From Candidatus Kapaibacterium sp. (GTDB lineage Bacteria; Bacteroidota; Ignavibacteria; Kapaibacteriales; UBA2268), in NCBI GenBank assembly GCA_937927515.1, contig CALBDO010000002.1, forward strand, positions 15,001 to 79,000: a stretch of DNA of 64,000 bases, in the 5' to 3' direction. The notes beneath the pieces are model-generated. The model worked only from the letters and a program-made list of their open reading frames with translations. It was not told the origin of the DNA and searched no databases. A program made the translations under genes and the position numbers. Below are positions 6,453-22,038 of the stretch, piece after piece (positions within the stretch are counted from its first letter, which is position 1; the number at the start of each line of letters is the position of its first letter).

Positions 6453-9400
6453 CTATCTACCTCCAGAGATGGACAACCTTATATCCAATCCAACTTGGAA
6501 ATTGCTAAATCCGGGGGAGGAAGCACCCTCGGTGAAAGTTCCCTCGTAGCGCATAAAGAAAGAGGCAGATAATCTTTGACTTACGGAATATCTTGCACGT
6601 GGTTCGATAATTATTTGAGTATTACCATCGAGAGTACGCCCCTTTTCGCCAGTGTAATTAAGAACATCATATGTCGCACGCTTATTTCTTCGATAAGAGC
6701 CAAGGAAACTAAACTCCACATCATTGCGTAAAACAAGATTGAATAATGGAAATTCAAAGCCTCGAAGCGTATAACTTGCTTGGGCTTGTACTTCGTCTGT
6801 TGTCTGACGAGTTATAGTAGACCTTGCTGTTGAATTTATTTGAAAAGAAGTGGATGTGTTGTATCGCAGAGAAGCAGTGAAAATGCCTTTGTATTTCTTT
6901 TCGTCGAAAGAAACAGATATGCCAACGAAAGGTTGGAACCCATACTGTACAGTTTGACCTTGTATAGCCTTTCCATTATCGTTAATCAACATATTTTCTT
7001 GGTATTTTGAAGTATAAATATGCTCGATAAGAATTCTTTTGGGAGCAATTGGGGCGAGTAATGCCCATTTTTCCAGGCCCTCCCAACGAAATGCCCAATT
7101 AATGCCTGGAAGGAATTTGCCAGCATCCCCAGTAAATATGCTGAAAGCTTCTAAACCTTTTCTAAAAGACTCTGATAAAGCGTTCAACAGCAACTGATTC
7201 TTTTTGATTGTATCTAAATTTGAAGCTAAAATCTTTTCTTTCTCTGCGTTGTATAAATTCAAAACGTTTTCAACATTGTTATTAAAAACATTTATCCAGA
7301 AAATCGATGGTAAAGTAAGGAAGGTCCGAGCAAATGATTGTGTTGCAATTACATTTGTAAAAAACGGATTACCTTGCGCATCGGTCAAAACAGTTTGATT
7401 TTTATTGAAACCCAGCTCCGTTTTCCAGTTCAAGTCCAAGTTTGCGCCTTTCCATAATTGACGAGTAGTTTTTATTTCAAAACTGGTTCTCTGATTAAAA
7501 TTTTCCTGCAAAATTGCATTCTCGGGTCTCCTTCCAACAGTTGTTTTGAAAGCAAAGAAAGGAAAAGTAGAAGATGGTGCCAAGAAGAAGCTTCCGTGAG
7601 GGCTACCCACCAAACCCAGTTGGTATGCAAAACTTGGGCCGAAATTCTCTTGACTTGCTCTAAATGTCATTCCCCGAGCCCAGAAATTATCAAAGCCGGT
7701 TCCCCCAAATACACCGGGATTGTTCGAAGAGTTGGTCTGAGTGAACACGAAATCTACTTTATCGAAATCGACAAAAATAGATTTTGCAATACTTCCAACT
7801 TTTTGCCAAAATGTTTTCGGTGTTGTATCTTTAACTGTAGTTGGTGTAGCAAAAGGTTGGGGGCGAACTTGCATACCCAGGATATCTTCTAAAAGCGATT
7901 TATAACGCAGACTTGCGTTGAATCTAATGTTGCTATTCCAAGAAGCATTTTTTACTATATTTTTAATTTTGAAGTCTTCTGCAAGCGGGTCGTTCCAGTT
8001 ATAGTTGACTTGATAACTACCAGTATTGTCGATATAGCGAGAATATTTCCCAAGAGGCCATTTCGGACGAACATTTATGGTAATGTTCTGGGTATGTATG
8101 TTGTTCTGTCCAAAGTTCATAATGTTACCATTTCTGAAGAAAATAATTTTTGCAATTTCGGTGCCAGTACGCTGGCGACCAAATTCATCCAATTCGTATG
8201 GAGCAAGGGTGCTGGTCGTGCTAAAAGAATAATCAACAATGGGATTTAAAAAGCCATTTTCACTGATTTTCCATGAAAATTGTGCGTTTCTTACTGCAGT
8301 GAAGTTTCTAATAACAGGGCTTGGAAAGTCGAGGAAGCGTGATTGTTCTGTCTGTCTCCTTCGACTCATATTTAAACTCAGACCGATGTTGTTAGGAAGG
8401 AAATTTAATTTCCAATCCGAGTAAATAGAGAAAAATCCAGCTTTAATCCAAGCCAATGGTCTAAGTGTTAAAAGCTCTGGGATAGAGTTTGAATACTGCA
8501 GAGATAAGTTCCAGTTCCAATTAAAGCGATGAAGATACAGTGGCGAGCGTTCAAACTCCTGGGAATAAGAATAGCCAAGAGCAATTTTATTAAAAGTTTC
8601 GTTAATAAGCCAATGGTTGATTGGAATACCAAATCGCATTCCAGTTACAGCCCAGCTATCCAACACACGCAAGGTTTGCGACCGTAGAATAAGCTCGTCT
8701 GCAGCTTTCCTTGCTTCCAGCGGTGTTGCACCGCCCTGGATAGCCTTATCATAAGCAGCATCCGAAGCCTCTTTGAGTTTAATATCATTATTAGCAATAA
8801 ACTCTGGATTTTCGAATACTTCGGTATGTGTGTAAGTAAAAGGTATCTTGAATTTTTGTAAAAATTTTGGCAACAATTTTTCAGCAGAAGCAAGCGCTGT
8901 GACCGAGAAATTTGAAGAGTTTAGCCTATTACCGAATCTTTCTTCAAGTCTGTGGAAATTTGGACGGGTAAAATTAAAAGAGGTATTCAACGAAGCAAAA
9001 TCAGCTAATTTTAATTCCGAGGAGGCAACAGCTGCCCAGTCGTTACGGTTTTCGGGGGAAATCAATCTCAGCTCATCAATCCACATGGTCGTGGTTAGTT
9101 CGTTTGGGTATCGCTCAGCGGGGTTTGCAATCCCAAATCCGAAGAACAGCACTCGTGTTAGAATAGGATTTCCGCGAATTGCGTACGAAGCAAGTGGATT
9201 ATTTCGAACAGGGAAGACTTGGCGCTGGTAAATCCGATTTGTATCTCGAATTTGTTTTACACTGGATAGTTCTTCTAAATCGATTTCAATATCTTGCCAG
9301 CCACGAAGCAATGGGACACGATACTCGTAGTAATTCATGGAATCGATTCCAAAGCGAATAAAAGCGTAAGCGACGGGTATGGCGCCAGGAACAAGGTTAT

Positions 9401-12400
9401 CGGGCATTGTGCCATCGCCGTGAATGAAAAATTTTAATTTTTTGTAATAGAAAATGTCCAACTGACGAAAATATCGGACCGCAAGACGTTCCTCGCCATA
9501 CCTCAAGTTTTTGACAGTCAATGATAATGATTGTTCATTTGTTCTAACTATTCTTGTCGGGTCGGGATTATCGAGACGGCGCGGGGCTTGTACGCCCGGC
9601 GGCATTGTGTAAAAATCGGGTGCTTTATTATTTTCTTCCAAGTTCACGAAAGAAACAGAAAGGACACTGTCATTTTGGTCCACATTAGTCTGGATATTAT
9701 TATTTCTCTGCCAATGTGCTCCAACAAGGCGCCATTCAACAATTGCTAATTTTGCTAATCCTCCTTTGAACCAAACTCGGGCATATTGTATGTTCGCAAA
9801 CGTAGGATTTCCAACGATTTTATTCGGTTTTCTCACTGGTATACGATATAAAAACCAACCTTTATCTGGATTGCCCCCAACAATTTGCGGATTTGTGTTT
9901 GGGTCGGGGTTAAGTTGTACTTCATATTGAAAATAGTCGTTTGCTAACGAAATTGTTTGTCCATTATTTTTATTCAAAACTTCTTGGTCGGGGAATTGGC
10001 CCATTTCCGAAATAGCATTTCCTTCGAAATTATTGAATTGAACAAAATCAGATGGATTTCGCTGGCTGTCATCTTTTCCAAAATCAAACTTAAAATTATC
10101 TCTTGCTGGGTCGTTTTCAAGACTTAAAGGATAGGGATAAACTTGTCTCTCTTTTTCATCATTTAAACCATCTATACCCACATCTTCACCAAGGTCGACA
10201 ATACCATTGGGCATAGGACTGGCTGATGTAATACCATCCTCGGTGTCGAGCCTTTGGTTTGGAATTATGTCCTCGCTTATCTGACCAAGTTCAATAAACA
10301 TTTTTGTCCTGCCGGGTTCATATTGTTGAATTTGCATCATAATTTCTATAAATTCTATGTTATCATTATCAAAATTTGTGTTGAACGTGGATATGAGTTT
10401 GGTCATCCCAGCCCAAATTCGCGAACGGTTTTCTGGTTTGTTTCCAAATGCATTGAGTGTATCGAAATTAGGATTGAGGGGGTCGGTAAAATCTGGGTTT
10501 GTATTGTAAATTCCTCTGAAAAGCGGGTCGAACTCGATAAATAGCGGCGAGAGATTTGCTTGTCCTGGTATGTAATCTCTATTTGGATAAACATCTCTTA
10601 TAGGAATTCTTGGCAGGGCGTATTGATACCAAAACATTCTACCACGAAACTTTGCTCTGGTTGAGTCGTCTATTCCGATGGTCTCGTCCTGGGGAGGAGA
10701 ACTATGTATCCAAAGCGATGGTGTTAAACTCAGAGAAATGTACCTTTGGGCACCTTCGAAATCATCAATGTAAACAACCGGCGAACTTTTGTCGCTAGCA
10801 ACATCGGAAGTGCGCCTATTGGGATTTGGCATCATCATTGCCCATTCGCCGCGGACATTGAAAGAAGATGTGGCTTTTGTTTCGTAAAAAGGCAGTAAAT
10901 CAACTATTTTGGTCAGCCATGGAAGCTCCCAATTCATACGAGCATCAAAGCCAAACATAGTATTTTGAACGGGCTCTTCGCCAAGGCGAACTCTATCGGT
11001 AACCAGCGATTGATTATAAAACATTGTTGTAAAGCCAAGGGCTCCTTCGCCAGTGCGCGATTTAAACAATTGGTAATCTGCACGCAAACCAAGAAGAGTT
11101 CTGGTTGTGATACTGAAAATATCCTGCTGTTCATATTCAATCTTCAAATTAGCGTTTGGCAGCGAAGCTCTGGGATTCCTTAAAGTAAGTGTACCGGAGT
11201 AGTAATCGATTATGTAATCATCGTACTCACGTAAGGGTACACCATCTAACGTAACACGCACACTATTTGGCGTCAAATTGAATGCTCCAAGAGAAATTCT
11301 ATCGGTAAATCTACCAGAAACCTCTCCAGAGATTACAAAGCGGTCTCGAGCGGTATTTCTACGAGCGACGTCGTAAGTTGTGTCGTATACTTCACCAAAG
11401 ACAAACTGTTCAGCAAGTTGTGGTGTTCCGGCACGCTCGAAATAGTCCCTTAACCCCTCGCGAAATGGTTCGAGGCTTGGAAAGGTTATCTCTCCATAAA
11501 TAGGGTCGAAGAAAGGCGGGCGGAGGTCGAATTGTCCATCACCCGGGGGTGCACCAGTGGAGTTGTTAATTTGGTCGACTCGCAAAATAGAAACAAGCTT
11601 ATCTGGAACTCCTGGAAGAACATCAGTGGAGTCGTTTCCCTGATTTATGTACCAAATGTTGATTTTTGTATCGTTAACTGATACATTTGTTGCATTTATT
11701 TGATAAATATTTTTCATCTGACGCGCCCAAAGCGATTTATATGCTGGCAATAAGTTTGGTCTATAGATTAATTTCAAAATCAACGTGTCCTTTTCTCCGA
11801 CAAGTGTAGAAAGAGTTCCATAATATAAATCATCAGTGGTATCAATTGTTTCCCCTTCGATTCGATAAGCAACTGCATAATAGCGGTCTTGACGCATATT
11901 TAAAATTTTTAAGGTACCAAGGTTATAATCTATCTTATACCGAGTGGAATCTATACGAAGGAAAGTACCGCGTTCGACGACACCAGTTTGAATTGGCGTA
12001 AATTTAATGCTTGCAGGATAAAGTTCATTTTTTCGCATTCGCTTTGGTTCTAAGTCTGCAAAAGCAACGGCATTGCCACCAAAAGCATTATCGCGAACAT
12101 CAGTAGTAGACTCATAAACCTCAATTTCCTTTATTCTGTAATACGATGAAGATTGCGGGATAACTGGCGTTGCACTTTTAAAATACTCTCTGTAGATATT
12201 TCTGTATGCTGTGTCGAGGAAGAAGTTATTTTTAGCATAATCATAAGCTCGCAAGGAGAAATATTGCTTGCTACTACCACCACGAACATCAACAAAACGA
12301 CGCTCGCCACGCTTCTGAGATGCAATGGTCTTCAAGAACAAAGGACCGAATTGGAAATCTGCACGAACGCCAAACAAAGCTTGCCCACCACCAATCAATG

Positions 12401-13223
12401 TCGAGGGAACTGGCATAGTTACATTCCCAACTTCGATTAGCTTTATGATGTCGTCGTCTTCGCCAGTATAGCCTATTTTAAATTTATTGTCAAAGTCAAA
12501 TTGCCTCCGCGTGTTCCAATCTGTACCAATCGAGAGCTTATCTCCGATTTTTCCAGTGACATTCACCCGAATGTCTTGGCTAAAAATTGGTGAAGATTGC
12601 GACTGCCCAAATGCCGACGTAGAGCCCAGGTTCTGCAAATCCCAACGCCAGCCCACGCGTATATTCACTTCACCATTTACATTCAGACTAACCTGTGGTT
12701 TGCCAAAAATAGTTATTATCGGGTTCGATGGTATTGGAATTGTCAAACCAGTAGCTTGACTAAGTATTCGAGCAATGTCCCCACCACTTAAAGCAACTTT
12801 TAAGTCGTAACTATTGCACAAAGAATCCCAAATTTGTCTTTGTATTGCTTCTTTTCGAATTGCTAAGTATTCTTCGAAAGGGATATTGTAGTCCTCGCTA
12901 ATTGGTACTTGCCAAAAGTAATATCGATAATGAAAATAAGAGGCGCTAGAGTCGATGTCGAAATATTTTATTAGACCTTCTGGAATGTATCGGAATCGGG
13001 GATTATCATAATCTGGATATCGGTAGAATAAATTTTGCCGAAGCAAATTCTTCTCTGGTATTTTTGTTCTCTTGAACTCGGGCACATAAATATTAAGTAA
13101 TGTAGTATCTAATTGCTGTGCAATGGAATAAAATTGTGGTAAAAGCAAGAGGAGTATAATGCAATTTTTCTTTATCTGTATAAAAACCTTTTGATACACA
13201 TTGTAGCCACGCTTATATTTCAC
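6453..13223 (-). CDS. sprA: SprA, giant outer-membrane translocon of the type IX secretion system
   Basis: 2256 residues, within the usual size range for SprA/Sov. A signal peptide (IILLLLLPQFYSIAQ) is followed by long beta-strand-rich repeats typical of the 36-strand barrel: GDKLSIGTDWNTRRQFDFDN, VFGEVYDTTYDV, YIDDFEGAQRYISL (a family hallmark), IRVGWRWDLQNLG, and a barrel-like C-terminus ending in aromatic and charged strands. SprA is the channel through which CTD-tagged cargo crosses the outer membrane. The frame opens with GTG at 13223, preceded by GGGGATAA. A second GTG at 13199 would shorten the leader to MYQKVFIQIKKN and lies inside one arm of a 14-bp inverted repeat. Zero-base spacing to the FAD oxidase gene suggests one transcript. 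Confidence 0.95.
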   Translation of the reverse strand: MKYKRGYNVYQKVFIQIKKNCIILLLLLPQFYSIAQQLDTTLLNIYVPEFKRTKIPEKNLLRQNLFYRYPDYDNPRFRYIPEGLIKYFDIDSSASYFHYRYYFWQVPISEDYNIPFEEYLAIRKEAIQRQIWDSLCNSYDLKVALSGGDIARILSQATGLTIPIPSNPIITIFGKPQVSLNVNGEVNIRVGWRWDLQNLGSTSAFGQSQSSPIFSQDIRVNVTGKIGDKLSIGTDWNTRRQFDFDNKFKIGYTGEDDDIIKLIEVGNVTMPVPSTLIGGGQALFGVRADFQFGPLFLKTIASQKRGERRFVDVRGGSSKQYFSLRAYDYAKNNFFLDTAYRNIYREYFKSATPVIPQSSSYYRIKEIEVYESTTDVRDNAFGGNAVAFADLEPKRMRKNELYPASIKFTPIQTGVVERGTFLRIDSTRYKIDYNLGTLKILNMRQDRYYAVAYRIEGETIDTTDDLYYGTLSTLVGEKDTLILKLIYRPNLLPAYKSLWARQMKNIYQINATNVSVNDTKINIWYINQGNDSTDVLPGVPDKLVSILRVDQINNSTGAPPGDGQFDLRPPFFDPIYGEITFPSLEPFREGLRDYFERAGTPQLAEQFVFGEVYDTTYDVARRNTARDRFVISGEVSGRFTDRISLGAFNLTPNSVRVTLDGVPLREYDDYIIDYYSGTLTLRNPRASLPNANLKIEYEQQDIFSITTRTLLGLRADYQLFKSRTGEGALGFTTMFYNQSLVTDRVRLGEEPVQNTMFGFDARMNWELPWLTKIVDLLPFYETKATSSFNVRGEWAMMMPNPNRRTSDVASDKSSPVVYIDDFEGAQRYISLSLTPSLWIHSSPPQDETIGIDDSTRAKFRGRMFWYQYALPRIPIRDVYPNRDYIPGQANLSPLFIEFDPLFRGIYNTNPDFTDPLNPNFDTLNAFGNKPENRSRIWAGMTKLISTFNTNFDNDNIEFIEIMMQIQQYEPGRTKMFIELGQISEDIIPNQRLDTEDGITSASPMPNGIVDLGEDVGIDGLNDEKERQVYPYPLSLENDPARDNFKFDFGKDDSQRNPSDFVQFNNFEGNAISEMGQFPDQEVLNKNNGQTISLANDYFQYEVQLNPDPNTNPQIVGGNPDKGWFLYRIPVRKPNKIVGNPTFANIQYARVWFKGGLAKLAIVEWRLVGAHWQRNNNIQTNVDQNDSVLSVSFVNLEENNKAPDFYTMPPGVQAPRRLDNPDPTRIVRTNEQSLSLTVKNLRYGEERLAVRYFRQLDIFYYKKLKFFIHGDGTMPDNLVPGAIPVAYAFIRFGIDSMNYYEYRVPLLRGWQDIEIDLEELSSVKQIRDTNRIYQRQVFPVRNNPLASYAIRGNPILTRVLFFGFGIANPAERYPNELTTTMWIDELRLISPENRNDWAAVASSELKLADFASLNTSFNFTRPNFHRLEERFGNRLNSSNFSVTALASAEKLLPKFLQKFKIPFTYTHTEVFENPEFIANNDIKLKEASDAAYDKAIQGGATPLEARKAADELILRSQTLRVLDSWAVTGMRFGIPINHWLINETFNKIALGYSYSQEFERSPLYLHRFNWNWNLSLQYSNSIPELLTLRPLAWIKAGFFSIYSDWKLNFLPNNIGLSLNMSRRRQTEQSRFLDFPSPVIRNFTAVRNAQFSWKISENGFLNPIVDYSFSTTSTLAPYELDEFGRQRTGTEIAKIIFFRNGNIMNFGQNNIHTQNITINVRPKWPLGKYSRYIDNTGSYQVNYNWNDPLAEDFKIKNIVKNASWNSNIRFNASLRYKSLLEDILGMQVRPQPFATPTTVKDTTPKTFWQKVGSIAKSIFVDFDKVDFVFTQTNSSNNPGVFGGTGFDNFWARGMTFRASQENFGPSFAYQLGLVGSPHGSFFLAPSSTFPFFAFKTTVGRRPENAILQENFNQRTSFEIKTTRQLWKGANLDLNWKTELGFNKNQTVLTDAQGNPFFTNVIATQSFARTFLTLPSIFWINVFNNNVENVLNLYNAEKEKILASNLDTIKKNQLLLNALSESFRKGLEAFSIFTGDAGKFLPGINWAFRWEGLEKWALLAPIAPKRILIEHIYTSKYQENMLINDNGKAIQGQTVQYGFQPFVGISVSFDEKKYKGIFTASLRYNTSTSFQINSTARSTITRQTTDEVQAQASYTLRGFEFPLFNLVLRNDVEFSFLGSYRRNKRATYDVLNYTGEKGRTLDGNTQIIIEPRARYSVSQRLSASFFMRYEGTFTEGASSPGFSNFQVGLDIRLSISGGR

Positions 13224-13294
13224 AGCTTATCCCCAAAACAAAATAGTCAACTTTTTGCAAATTTTTCAGAAAATGTAAAAGTGTATCAAAAGGT
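13186..13294. repeat. Perfect 14-bp inverted repeat flanking the sprA start codon
   Basis: ACCTTTTGATACAC at 13186-13199 and its exact reverse complement GTGTATCAAAAGGT at 13281-13294 are separated by 81 bases. That loop contains the sprA GTG start (13221-13223) and the GGGG ribosome-binding sequence. In sprA mRNA the arms could pair as a long stem closing off the initiation region. Alternatively they are two operator half-sites. The coding-side arm contains the alternative GTG start at 13199. Confidence 0.7.
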
Positions 13295-13535
13295 CACTAA
13301 GCTAAATTATTTTGTTTTACAAGCAAATACAAAATTATAAAAAAAATTAACGAATAAAAATCAAATTAAGTAATTTTCGACAGCAAAGAAACTTTTTATA
13401 ATCTCTAACCCTAATGTGTAACTTTACTGATGTTTCGTAATCGTCTGAGTTCACCATAGAATTTACCATTAAAATCACATACAGACTTCAATTTACTTGA
13501 AAAGAAATCGTAGGAAGTAGCGAATCATATTTTTT

Positions 13536-19858: not shown

Positions 19859-21898
19859 TCAATTTACATATTTCAATGCAATTTCTGCCGCTTCAATCAA
19901 TGGTTTAACGGAAATTTCGGAGCCCACAGCATTTTTCATCCAAATTTGTGGAGTTGTTCGACCAAATGTCAGCATTCTAAAGAGTTCTTGTGCCAAATCT
20001 TTATTTTCGAGATACTTTTCAATTTGAAATTCAATGATATGCCCTAGTGGATAGGCTGGCAAATACAAAGGATAATCAATCATATGCGAGTATATTGCAA
20101 GAATAGGCTCGTCTTTGATACCAAAAACTGGCGCATAGTATTTATTCCATACATCTTTTGCGATAGTAATTACGGCATTTTTCAATTCATCAACACTTGC
20201 ATTGGGGTGAGCATAAAGCCAGTTCCAAACGTACATATCCACAAGAGCGACGCCCATAATCTCATATGATGCCCAAAAATTGTCTAACGCAGTTAGATAT
20301 TTTGCGCTTGGGTCGGGATTTGAAATGCCCAAAATTTCCAAATCTCGCTTCTGAAAAATAAAAGCCATTGCTTCTGTAAAAGCAGTGTTTGGAACACCAT
20401 TTAGCATATAGTAGTCTACCTTTTGCAGTGTAAGTGTCTGCTCGACGTTGTGACCAAATTCGTGCATGGCGATATTGTATCCCTTGTAATCCATGCCAGT
20501 TGGAGGGATGCGAGTACGAAGATGAGCATTTTCGCTGCGCATTTGAGCGCCCCAGGCGTGTCCAGCCCCACGAGCTGGGTCGACTTCCACTTTCGAAGCA
20601 ATATAATTTGCAAGTTCCGAGTCAAATCCAAGTTTCATTAAAATATTTGGTAAATCTTTTGCAAACGCCTCGTTGTTTGGATACTTACTGCGAGTGATTT
20701 CTGTCAACCGTGCTTCGTCGAGTTGACTTCGGGCTTTGAAACCATCATACCAGATGTCGAACGGTTCGAGTGGCCTATTGAGTCTCTTTTGAATTAATTC
20801 TGCAACCTTTTGGACAGTTGGGGAAGATACCAATTCTACAAACAAATTTTCTATTTCTTTCTCAGAAATTTCGAATTCCAAATCAAATTTCCTACTTATA
20901 TAAGTCGGGTACTCGGGATAAAATTTATCCACTGCCTTACGGGCTAAAAAGTTATTTAATAGGTGCTGATATCGAGTGTTTGGTTCAGGATTGGATGGGA
21001 CTTCTTTGCCTTCTTTAAAAACTTTGTTTTTGAAGGGATTCCAAGTATATTCGGGATTATTAATTACTTGTACGGGAATAGTTTGATTGATTATGTGTTT
21101 CATCACAGTGTAAATCAGCTTTTGCTTAAATAAACCATCTTCTTTTCCATATAGCGATTTAATCTCGTCTCTTAGATTCCAATGGGAAATAAGCTTTTTG
21201 TCCTTTGGGAAGTATGTATTGAAGTTATCGTCGACAAGATTGCCAACAAAGATATTATATTCCGAAATGTATGAATCGGCTTTTGTAGAAACCTCTGAAA
21301 TTTTTTGCAAATATTCGCTGGGTACACGGGAGGTGAATATATCGCCCATACGGGCAAAAGCCCATTGTTTTCTGCTCCAACTGGAGCCAAAAGTATTTTT
21401 CTCCTCGAGTTTGTAATTTGGAAAATTCAACATAACATAAAAAGCTATTTTATTTTTAAAGAAATCGTTTATAAGATTGGCAGACGGGTCGTATCCAGCA
21501 AACATTAAGTCGACTGGCAAAATCTCGCCTAAATCCAAATGTAATTGTTTATTCAATTCTAACGAAATTTTATTGAAATGTCCACTTATCACTTCGAAGT
21601 AATTAGATAATCGTTCGAAGACAAGGTCGAGTTTTTCGCCTTGAGGTACGAAGTTATTTAGACAGAAATCAAAAAACTCTTTCTTCGAACCATCTTCTTC
21701 TGTCCAAAAGTTTGCCATTTGATTGATACTGCGTTGGATTCTGTCTCGGTCTGACTCTCCATATCTTTCTACAAGCGCTTTGATAGTTTTGTTAATTGTA
21801 GGTTTGTCGATAAACTTTTTCATTTCTAACTCTGAATTATTTGTGCAAAAAGTCAAAAACATTACAGATAAAACAAATAATAAGAAAGTTTTCTTCAT
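19859..21898 (-). CDS. Zinc metallopeptidase lipoprotein (gluzincin, HEFGH)
   Basis: About 679 residues from the ATG at 21898. That start gives a lipoprotein signal (KKTFLLFVLSVMFLTFC) with the Cys near residue 19. A longer frame to 22003 runs into the tRNA-His gene and is rejected. HEFGH at residues 479-483 is the zinc and catalytic motif. Glu509 in FTEAMAFIF, about 26 residues further on, is the expected third ligand, as in gluzincins such as the M3 family. The surrounding sequence does not look like classical M3 or M32 enzymes, so it is an unassigned family. The predicted place is the periplasmic or outer-membrane face. Confidence 0.75.
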   Translation of the reverse strand: MKKTFLLFVLSVMFLTFCTNNSELEMKKFIDKPTINKTIKALVERYGESDRDRIQRSINQMANFWTEEDGSKKEFFDFCLNNFVPQGEKLDLVFERLSNYFEVISGHFNKISLELNKQLHLDLGEILPVDLMFAGYDPSANLINDFFKNKIAFYVMLNFPNYKLEEKNTFGSSWSRKQWAFARMGDIFTSRVPSEYLQKISEVSTKADSYISEYNIFVGNLVDDNFNTYFPKDKKLISHWNLRDEIKSLYGKEDGLFKQKLIYTVMKHIINQTIPVQVINNPEYTWNPFKNKVFKEGKEVPSNPEPNTRYQHLLNNFLARKAVDKFYPEYPTYISRKFDLEFEISEKEIENLFVELVSSPTVQKVAELIQKRLNRPLEPFDIWYDGFKARSQLDEARLTEITRSKYPNNEAFAKDLPNILMKLGFDSELANYIASKVEVDPARGAGHAWGAQMRSENAHLRTRIPPTGMDYKGYNIAMHEFGHNVEQTLTLQKVDYYMLNGVPNTAFTEAMAFIFQKRDLEILGISNPDPSAKYLTALDNFWASYEIMGVALVDMYVWNWLYAHPNASVDELKNAVITIAKDVWNKYYAPVFGIKDEPILAIYSHMIDYPLYLPAYPLGHIIEFQIEKYLENKDLAQELFRMLTFGRTTPQIWMKNAVGSEISVKPLIEAAEIALKYVN

Positions 21899-21963
21899 TT
21901 CCGACCTCAAAAAAAGCAAAATTAAAAAAAGAAACCAAGGTGGGCAACAATTAAAAACCAAAG

Positions 21964-22038
21964 GGCGAGCTATGGGATTCGAACCCACGACCCCCAGAGC
22001 CACAATCTGGTGCTCTAACCAGCTGAGCTAAGCTCGCC
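21964..22038 (-). tRNA. tRNA-His (GTG)
   Basis: The minus strand folds as a full cloverleaf: acceptor GCGAGCT/AGCTCGC, D-arm with AGCTCAGCTGGTTAGAGC, anticodon stem CCAGA/TCTGG with loop TTGTGGC (anticodon GTG), and T-arm with GGTTCGAATCC. The extra 5' G (position -1) opposite C73 is encoded, as expected for His identity. No CCA is encoded. A TAATTTTG element at 22052-22059 on the minus strand may be the -7 box. Confidence 0.97.

Follow-up and report, generated by a model that had tools for sequence, protein, structure and literature searches.

A predicted long-distance mRNA stem at the start of the T9SS translocon gene sprA in Candidatus Kapaibacterium and related genera

Does the perfect inverted repeat that brackets the start of a secretion gene act as DNA, as mRNA, or not at all? 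The question is raised by a stretch of 64,000 nucleotides from a Candidatus Kapaibacterium genome (the window in what follows), in which the gene that an earlier note had recognized as sprA of the T9SS translocon occupies 6453–13223 on the minus strand. This identification is borne out by a match to PF14349 (SprA_N, E=3.7e-48). The same note described two 14-bp arms, 81 bases apart, around the translation start of this gene, and proposed that they form either an mRNA stem controlling SprA synthesis or a pair of operator sites.

The inverted repeat and its surroundings

The repeat was recovered as described, both by an arm search and in the sequence itself. Its perfect core lies at 13186–13199 and 13281–13294, with 14/14 positions complementary and 81 nt between the two halves, and is part of fuller arms of 17 nt (13186–13202 and 13278–13294) that are 94% complementary. 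Because sprA is encoded on the minus strand, the 5' arm in the mRNA is 13294–13281, in the leader (ACCTTTTGATACAC, sense), and the 3' arm is 13199–13186, in the first codons (GTGTATCAAAAGGT, sense), the two being separated by a loop at 13200–13280 (minus strand). It follows likewise from the orientation of the gene that the arms flank both the GTG at 13223, from which sprA is listed, and a Shine-Dalgarno-like (SD-like) run GGGGA six bases before it (13230–13234, minus strand). The claim of an enclosed start therefore stands, but needs correcting in one respect: the 3' arm opens with another in-frame GTG, at 13199, which may serve as an alternative start. With GTG 13223 as the start, 24 nt of the gene would precede the 3' arm, so that the stem may enclose the initiation site rather than cover it.

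No other perfect inverted repeat of at least 14 bp with a gap of up to 120 was present in the whole window, and the exact 14-mer occurs in the source genome at these two sites only. In 60 dinucleotide shuffles, the mean number of such repeats per 64 kb was 0.083 for gaps of 0–120 and 0.067 for gaps of 60–100. The view that the match is unlikely by chance thus holds for the window (0.07–0.08 expected); at this rate, however, about three such repeats would arise in a 2.4-Mb genome, and the repeat by itself is not compelling.

Upstream of the 5' arm, at a distance of 43 nt, the minus strand carries TAATTTTG (13330–13337). It fits TAnnTTTG, which we take to be the Bacteroidota -7 consensus, and is on this basis called promoter-like. 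In each of the five species of the genus, a TAnnTTTG element precedes the 5' arm by 43–46 nt; among the 39 leaders with arms, 19 contain such an element (5.5 expected). Another -7-like stretch, TTGACTATTTTG, is located inside the loop (13239–13250, minus strand) and is kept as TTGACTAATTTTG or nearly so in four of the five species; judging by its letters, it could be a second promoter whose transcript would lack the 5' arm. Among the genes of the window, 10/45 are preceded by SD-like tetramers, compared with 5/45 in a control interval. The listed GTG start of one open reading frame (19859–22003) is preceded by a sequence resembling a tRNA gene, GCTCAGCTGGTTAGAGCACCAGATT (22003–22030, minus strand), so the true start of this frame is probably further in.

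Conservation and covariation within the genus

The earlier note had made its case dependent on the presence and covariation of the repeat in close relatives, and had suggested folding the sprA leader. The gene was present in all 60 related genomes, five of which belong to the genus of the window, namely the source genome, Candidatus Kapaibacterium Ch6 (G002), SKW251 (G001), MS-B_bin-24 (G003) and SKW242 (G004). Besides sprA, the genomes G010, G024, G075 and G076 contained a second, short SprA-like frame (about 350 residues) that is 48–51% identical to residues 321–599 of the query.

In a gapped pattern search, the arm pair was found at sprA, and nowhere else, in 5/5 species of the genus. Both arms were conserved while leader and loop diverged; the core GATACAC/GTGTATC was unchanged in both arms throughout, and the pairing reached past this common core in letters particular to each species. 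Over 19 pairs in the five species, 95.8% of cells pair, and four of the 19 pairs were altered on both sides, i.e. by compensatory change. The covariation score, obtained from five species only and compared with shuffles that leave relatedness in, was matched by none of the 500 shuffles, and each slid control scored lower. Folding gave a concordant picture, the stem formed by the two arms being present in the minimum-energy folds of all five species (z -2.4 to -6.1); when a larger piece of the window leader, of 181 nt, was folded, its stability was ordinary (z -0.61). The stem has therefore passed the comparison with close relatives.

In length, the stem ranges from 14 to 22 pairs in this genus as opposed to 7–11 in other genera, and the loop is 88 nt long in four of the species and 81 nt in the source species, corresponding to an arm spacing of 102 and 95, respectively. 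In L002, L003 and L004 the end of the 3' arm could pair instead with the codons that follow it, giving a possible competing hairpin with the arms AGG..TTTAGTTTT / AAAACTAAA..CCT in the first two and AGATTTTA / TAAAATCT in L004.

No excess of pairing was detected at the 44 other genes of the window, of which one reached p<=0.05, and the best score among them was 19 as against 33.5 for sprA. Furthermore, in control stretches of 200 kb each from G002 and G009, in which every gene was allowed up to four candidate starts, sprA ranked first of 132 and of 126 genes, respectively.

Stems of different sequence in other genera

Outside the genus of the window, the pair GATACAC/GTGTATC was not found at sprA, which, taken alone, would confine the finding to one genus. 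Many other genera of the family carry different complementary arms at this location; in one case the leader has CTGCTAC, and GTAGCAG comes right after a TTG start. Among 20 hand-chosen loci, the base pairs at arm positions +4 to +14, counted from the start, vary, position +9 being G-C, T-A or A-T. Two features of a start-masking mRNA stem are found here: a distant leader segment is complementary to the start region, and the pairing is kept through compensatory changes.

These stems were assessed in a blind test, in which the start codon was picked by a rule that ignores pairing and the first 18 nt from there were matched against 180 nt of leader; scoring was done by cross-genus ranks and by dinucleotide shuffles. 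In the shuffle test, which counts genera as independent although one gene in related genomes is being compared, 11 of the 25 genera reached p<=0.05 (Fisher 9.9e-9, or 1.3e-7 minus the window's genus), and 14 fell short of it singly. Four loci were left out, with the result that g7 and g22 are missing from the 25 genera: the rule gave no start for L006 and L064, L009 lacked a hydrophobic stretch, and the leader of L054 was short. L038–L045, several of which represent contigs already counted, were not included in the counts.

A leader motif was likewise sought blind to pairing: an SD-like tetramer followed after 2–9 nt by TAT[ACT] (SD+TATH). It was detected in 29 of 49 leaders (11.8 expected), an enrichment that does not constitute an independent discovery since these very leaders had given rise to the motif, and it was absent from the other 20, including all five of the window's genus. 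Pairing between the sprA start and the 24 nt after the motif reached p<=0.05 in 17 of the 29 leaders, representing 13 of 21 genera; for two of the 17 (L009 and L016) the start had been set by hand. In 12 leaders the pairing stayed above p 0.05. Within the control stretch of G009, sprA was the sole gene (1/126) that combined a score of at least 20 with SD+TATH beside the arm, and in that of G002 the two were combined in 0/132 genes.

The usual order in other genera is a promoter-like element, the SD-like site, ATA/ATC/ATT, the 5' arm, the loop, the start codon (mostly TTG) and the 3' arm. In most of the genera with such stems, the 5' arm is preceded by an SD-like site after which ATA, ATC or ATT occupies the place of a start codon. 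ATG, GTG and TTG are absent at start spacing from most of the SD-bearing leaders, apart from an ATG in L008 and a TTG in each of L019, L030 and the leaders of g14 and g17. In the window's genus, the site before the 5' arm was found in 0/5 species, and an SD-like run is situated inside the loop. For this reason, the stem of the window and those of the family are grouped as a single kind of element by position and pairing, not by sequence.

Several lines were set aside. No extension to other families of the order is claimed, the 24/24 loci scored giving Fisher 0.022 with one locus, L084, at p 0.005. A lax local alignment of leaders and an energy-based duplex scan covering about 20/30 loci each yielded mostly noise beyond the genus, and both were replaced by the tests described above. 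The excess of G-U over A-C cells (14 vs 6) was abandoned as proof of an RNA stem, because the arms had been picked with G-U allowed and the count is therefore biased. As a separate observation, the sprA leader of L084 (genome G048, outside the family) contains a strong 12-pair stem, GCGCTCCAGAGC / GCTCTGGAGTGC, soon after GGGGAGG.

Possible mode of action and alternatives

Of the proposal that an mRNA stem controls SprA synthesis, the stem is well supported, given its presence in 5/5 species of the genus and, though the letters differ, in genera beyond it; translational control of SprA by this stem is what we infer from the sequences. We consider it likely that the arms form a cis-acting mRNA stem over or around the sprA initiation region, which restrains translation as long as it stays closed. 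The leader would probably be transcribed from a promoter located some 40 nt before the 5' arm, and this arm would pair across the long loop with the first sprA codons. The stem would then cover or enclose the initiation region, leading to less translation until it is opened, which in other genera might, speculatively, be achieved by a 30S subunit or ribosome at the upstream SD-like site. If the stem works as proposed, it would represent a direct handle on the dosing of a very large outer-membrane translocon, in bacteria whose choice of start sites is poorly understood.

The masking of a start region by mRNA pairing over a long distance is known from the replicase start of phage MS2 and from the E. 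coli rpmI-rplT leader. In these, as in sprA, a distant upstream segment pairs with the initiation region. The sprA case differs in that a secretion translocon gene is concerned, the 3' arm falls within the first codons, any translational effect would be a predicted one, and the 5' arm in the leaders of other genera comes after an SD-like site that lacks a usual start codon. Ribosome standby sites, for example that of tisB, resemble the sprA leaders in providing a possible site of ribosome loading far upstream of a structured start; however, the sprA site outside the window's genus consists of an SD with ATA/ATC/ATT and is followed by sequence that pairs with the start region, while within the genus it is absent. 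Our queries of the open-licence literature, mostly broad ones, returned no account of a T9SS gene under cis-acting RNA control, and a search for long-distance mRNA pairing gave nothing relevant.

According to one study, the ribosomes of Bacteroidia do not use SDs, the 16S tail being held by bS21, bS18 and bS6, and most mRNAs of Chlorobia have no SDs (PMC9976891). The rpsU gene of Bacteroidia, the control of which is SD-dependent, resembles the sprA leaders in having a conspicuous SD in a phylum whose mRNAs are reported to be mostly SD-less; the SD of rpsU serves the rpsU start itself (PMC9976891), whereas that of the sprA leaders is far upstream of sprA. For Flavobacterium, a tuning of initiation by mRNA structure is reported in another study (PMC6847099).

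A more specific form of this stem model, in which it would be a ribosome-sensing switch, is speculative; the upstream site on which it relies is lacking in the window's genus. Tentatively, the leaders might hold two complementary initiation-like sites, a dead SD site with ATA/ATC/ATT and a weak start, mostly TTG. As the sequences after the two sites pair with each other, the true start would be freed once a 30S subunit occupies the dead one. If this were true, the supply of SD-competent ribosomes would set the number of T9SS translocons made, and the window's genus would represent a derived form that has lost the upstream site.

It is unlikely, if still worth weighing, that the stem is opened and closed in an attenuator-like manner by ribosomes translating a short leader frame from ATA/ATC/ATT or TTG. 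Most leaders outside the window's genus do have an SD-like site ahead of the 5' arm, at the spacing of a start codon, and the g14 and g17 leaders have TTG at that spacing; nevertheless, the codon is almost always ATA, ATC or ATT, the ends of the frame vary in length even inside genus g21 (judged by eye), and all five species of the window's genus lack the upstream site.

Paired DNA operators, the second proposal of the earlier note, are disfavoured and appear rather improbable. Here the arms would be two sites of a regulator flanking a promoter in the loop and acting by looping or blocking. The invariant core in both arms, the TAATTTTG-like stretch in the loop of 4/5 species, as expected of a promoter flanked by two operators, and the identical arm spacing in 4/5 species are in agreement with this; but no further exact copy of the site exists in the genome, pairing is maintained in other genera by arms of unrelated sequence, the pairing extends beyond the core in species-specific letters, and the spacing of 95 in this species, compared with 102 in the others, does not preserve helical phase. 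The site neither recurs as an exact copy at other genes nor keeps its sequence in other genera. A regulon of such sites was rejected; five copies with one mismatch were found, as against two matches for a reversed control pattern.

Returning to the mRNA stem, its position over or around the start region and its greater length in the window's genus might suggest a putative RNA thermometer, which would melt as temperature rises and free the start region. This we regard as improbable indeed, no known thermometer family having been matched; in Rfam 15, nothing reached the gathering score, the single match having 18.1 bits vs a gathering score of 100, and a known RNA family was rejected. Very improbable is a chance repeat that has been preserved because the species are related and the 3' arm is constrained by coding: that arm is indeed coding and some repeats are expected by chance in every genome, but both arms stay while their surroundings diverge, arm pairs have changed on both sides, and the separate family-wide and control-gene tests favour the sprA stem. 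Finally, an invertible DNA segment, with the arms as recombination sites around a possible promoter, is scarcely credible, since the loop has the same orientation in 5/5 species and a flip would replace the sprA start.
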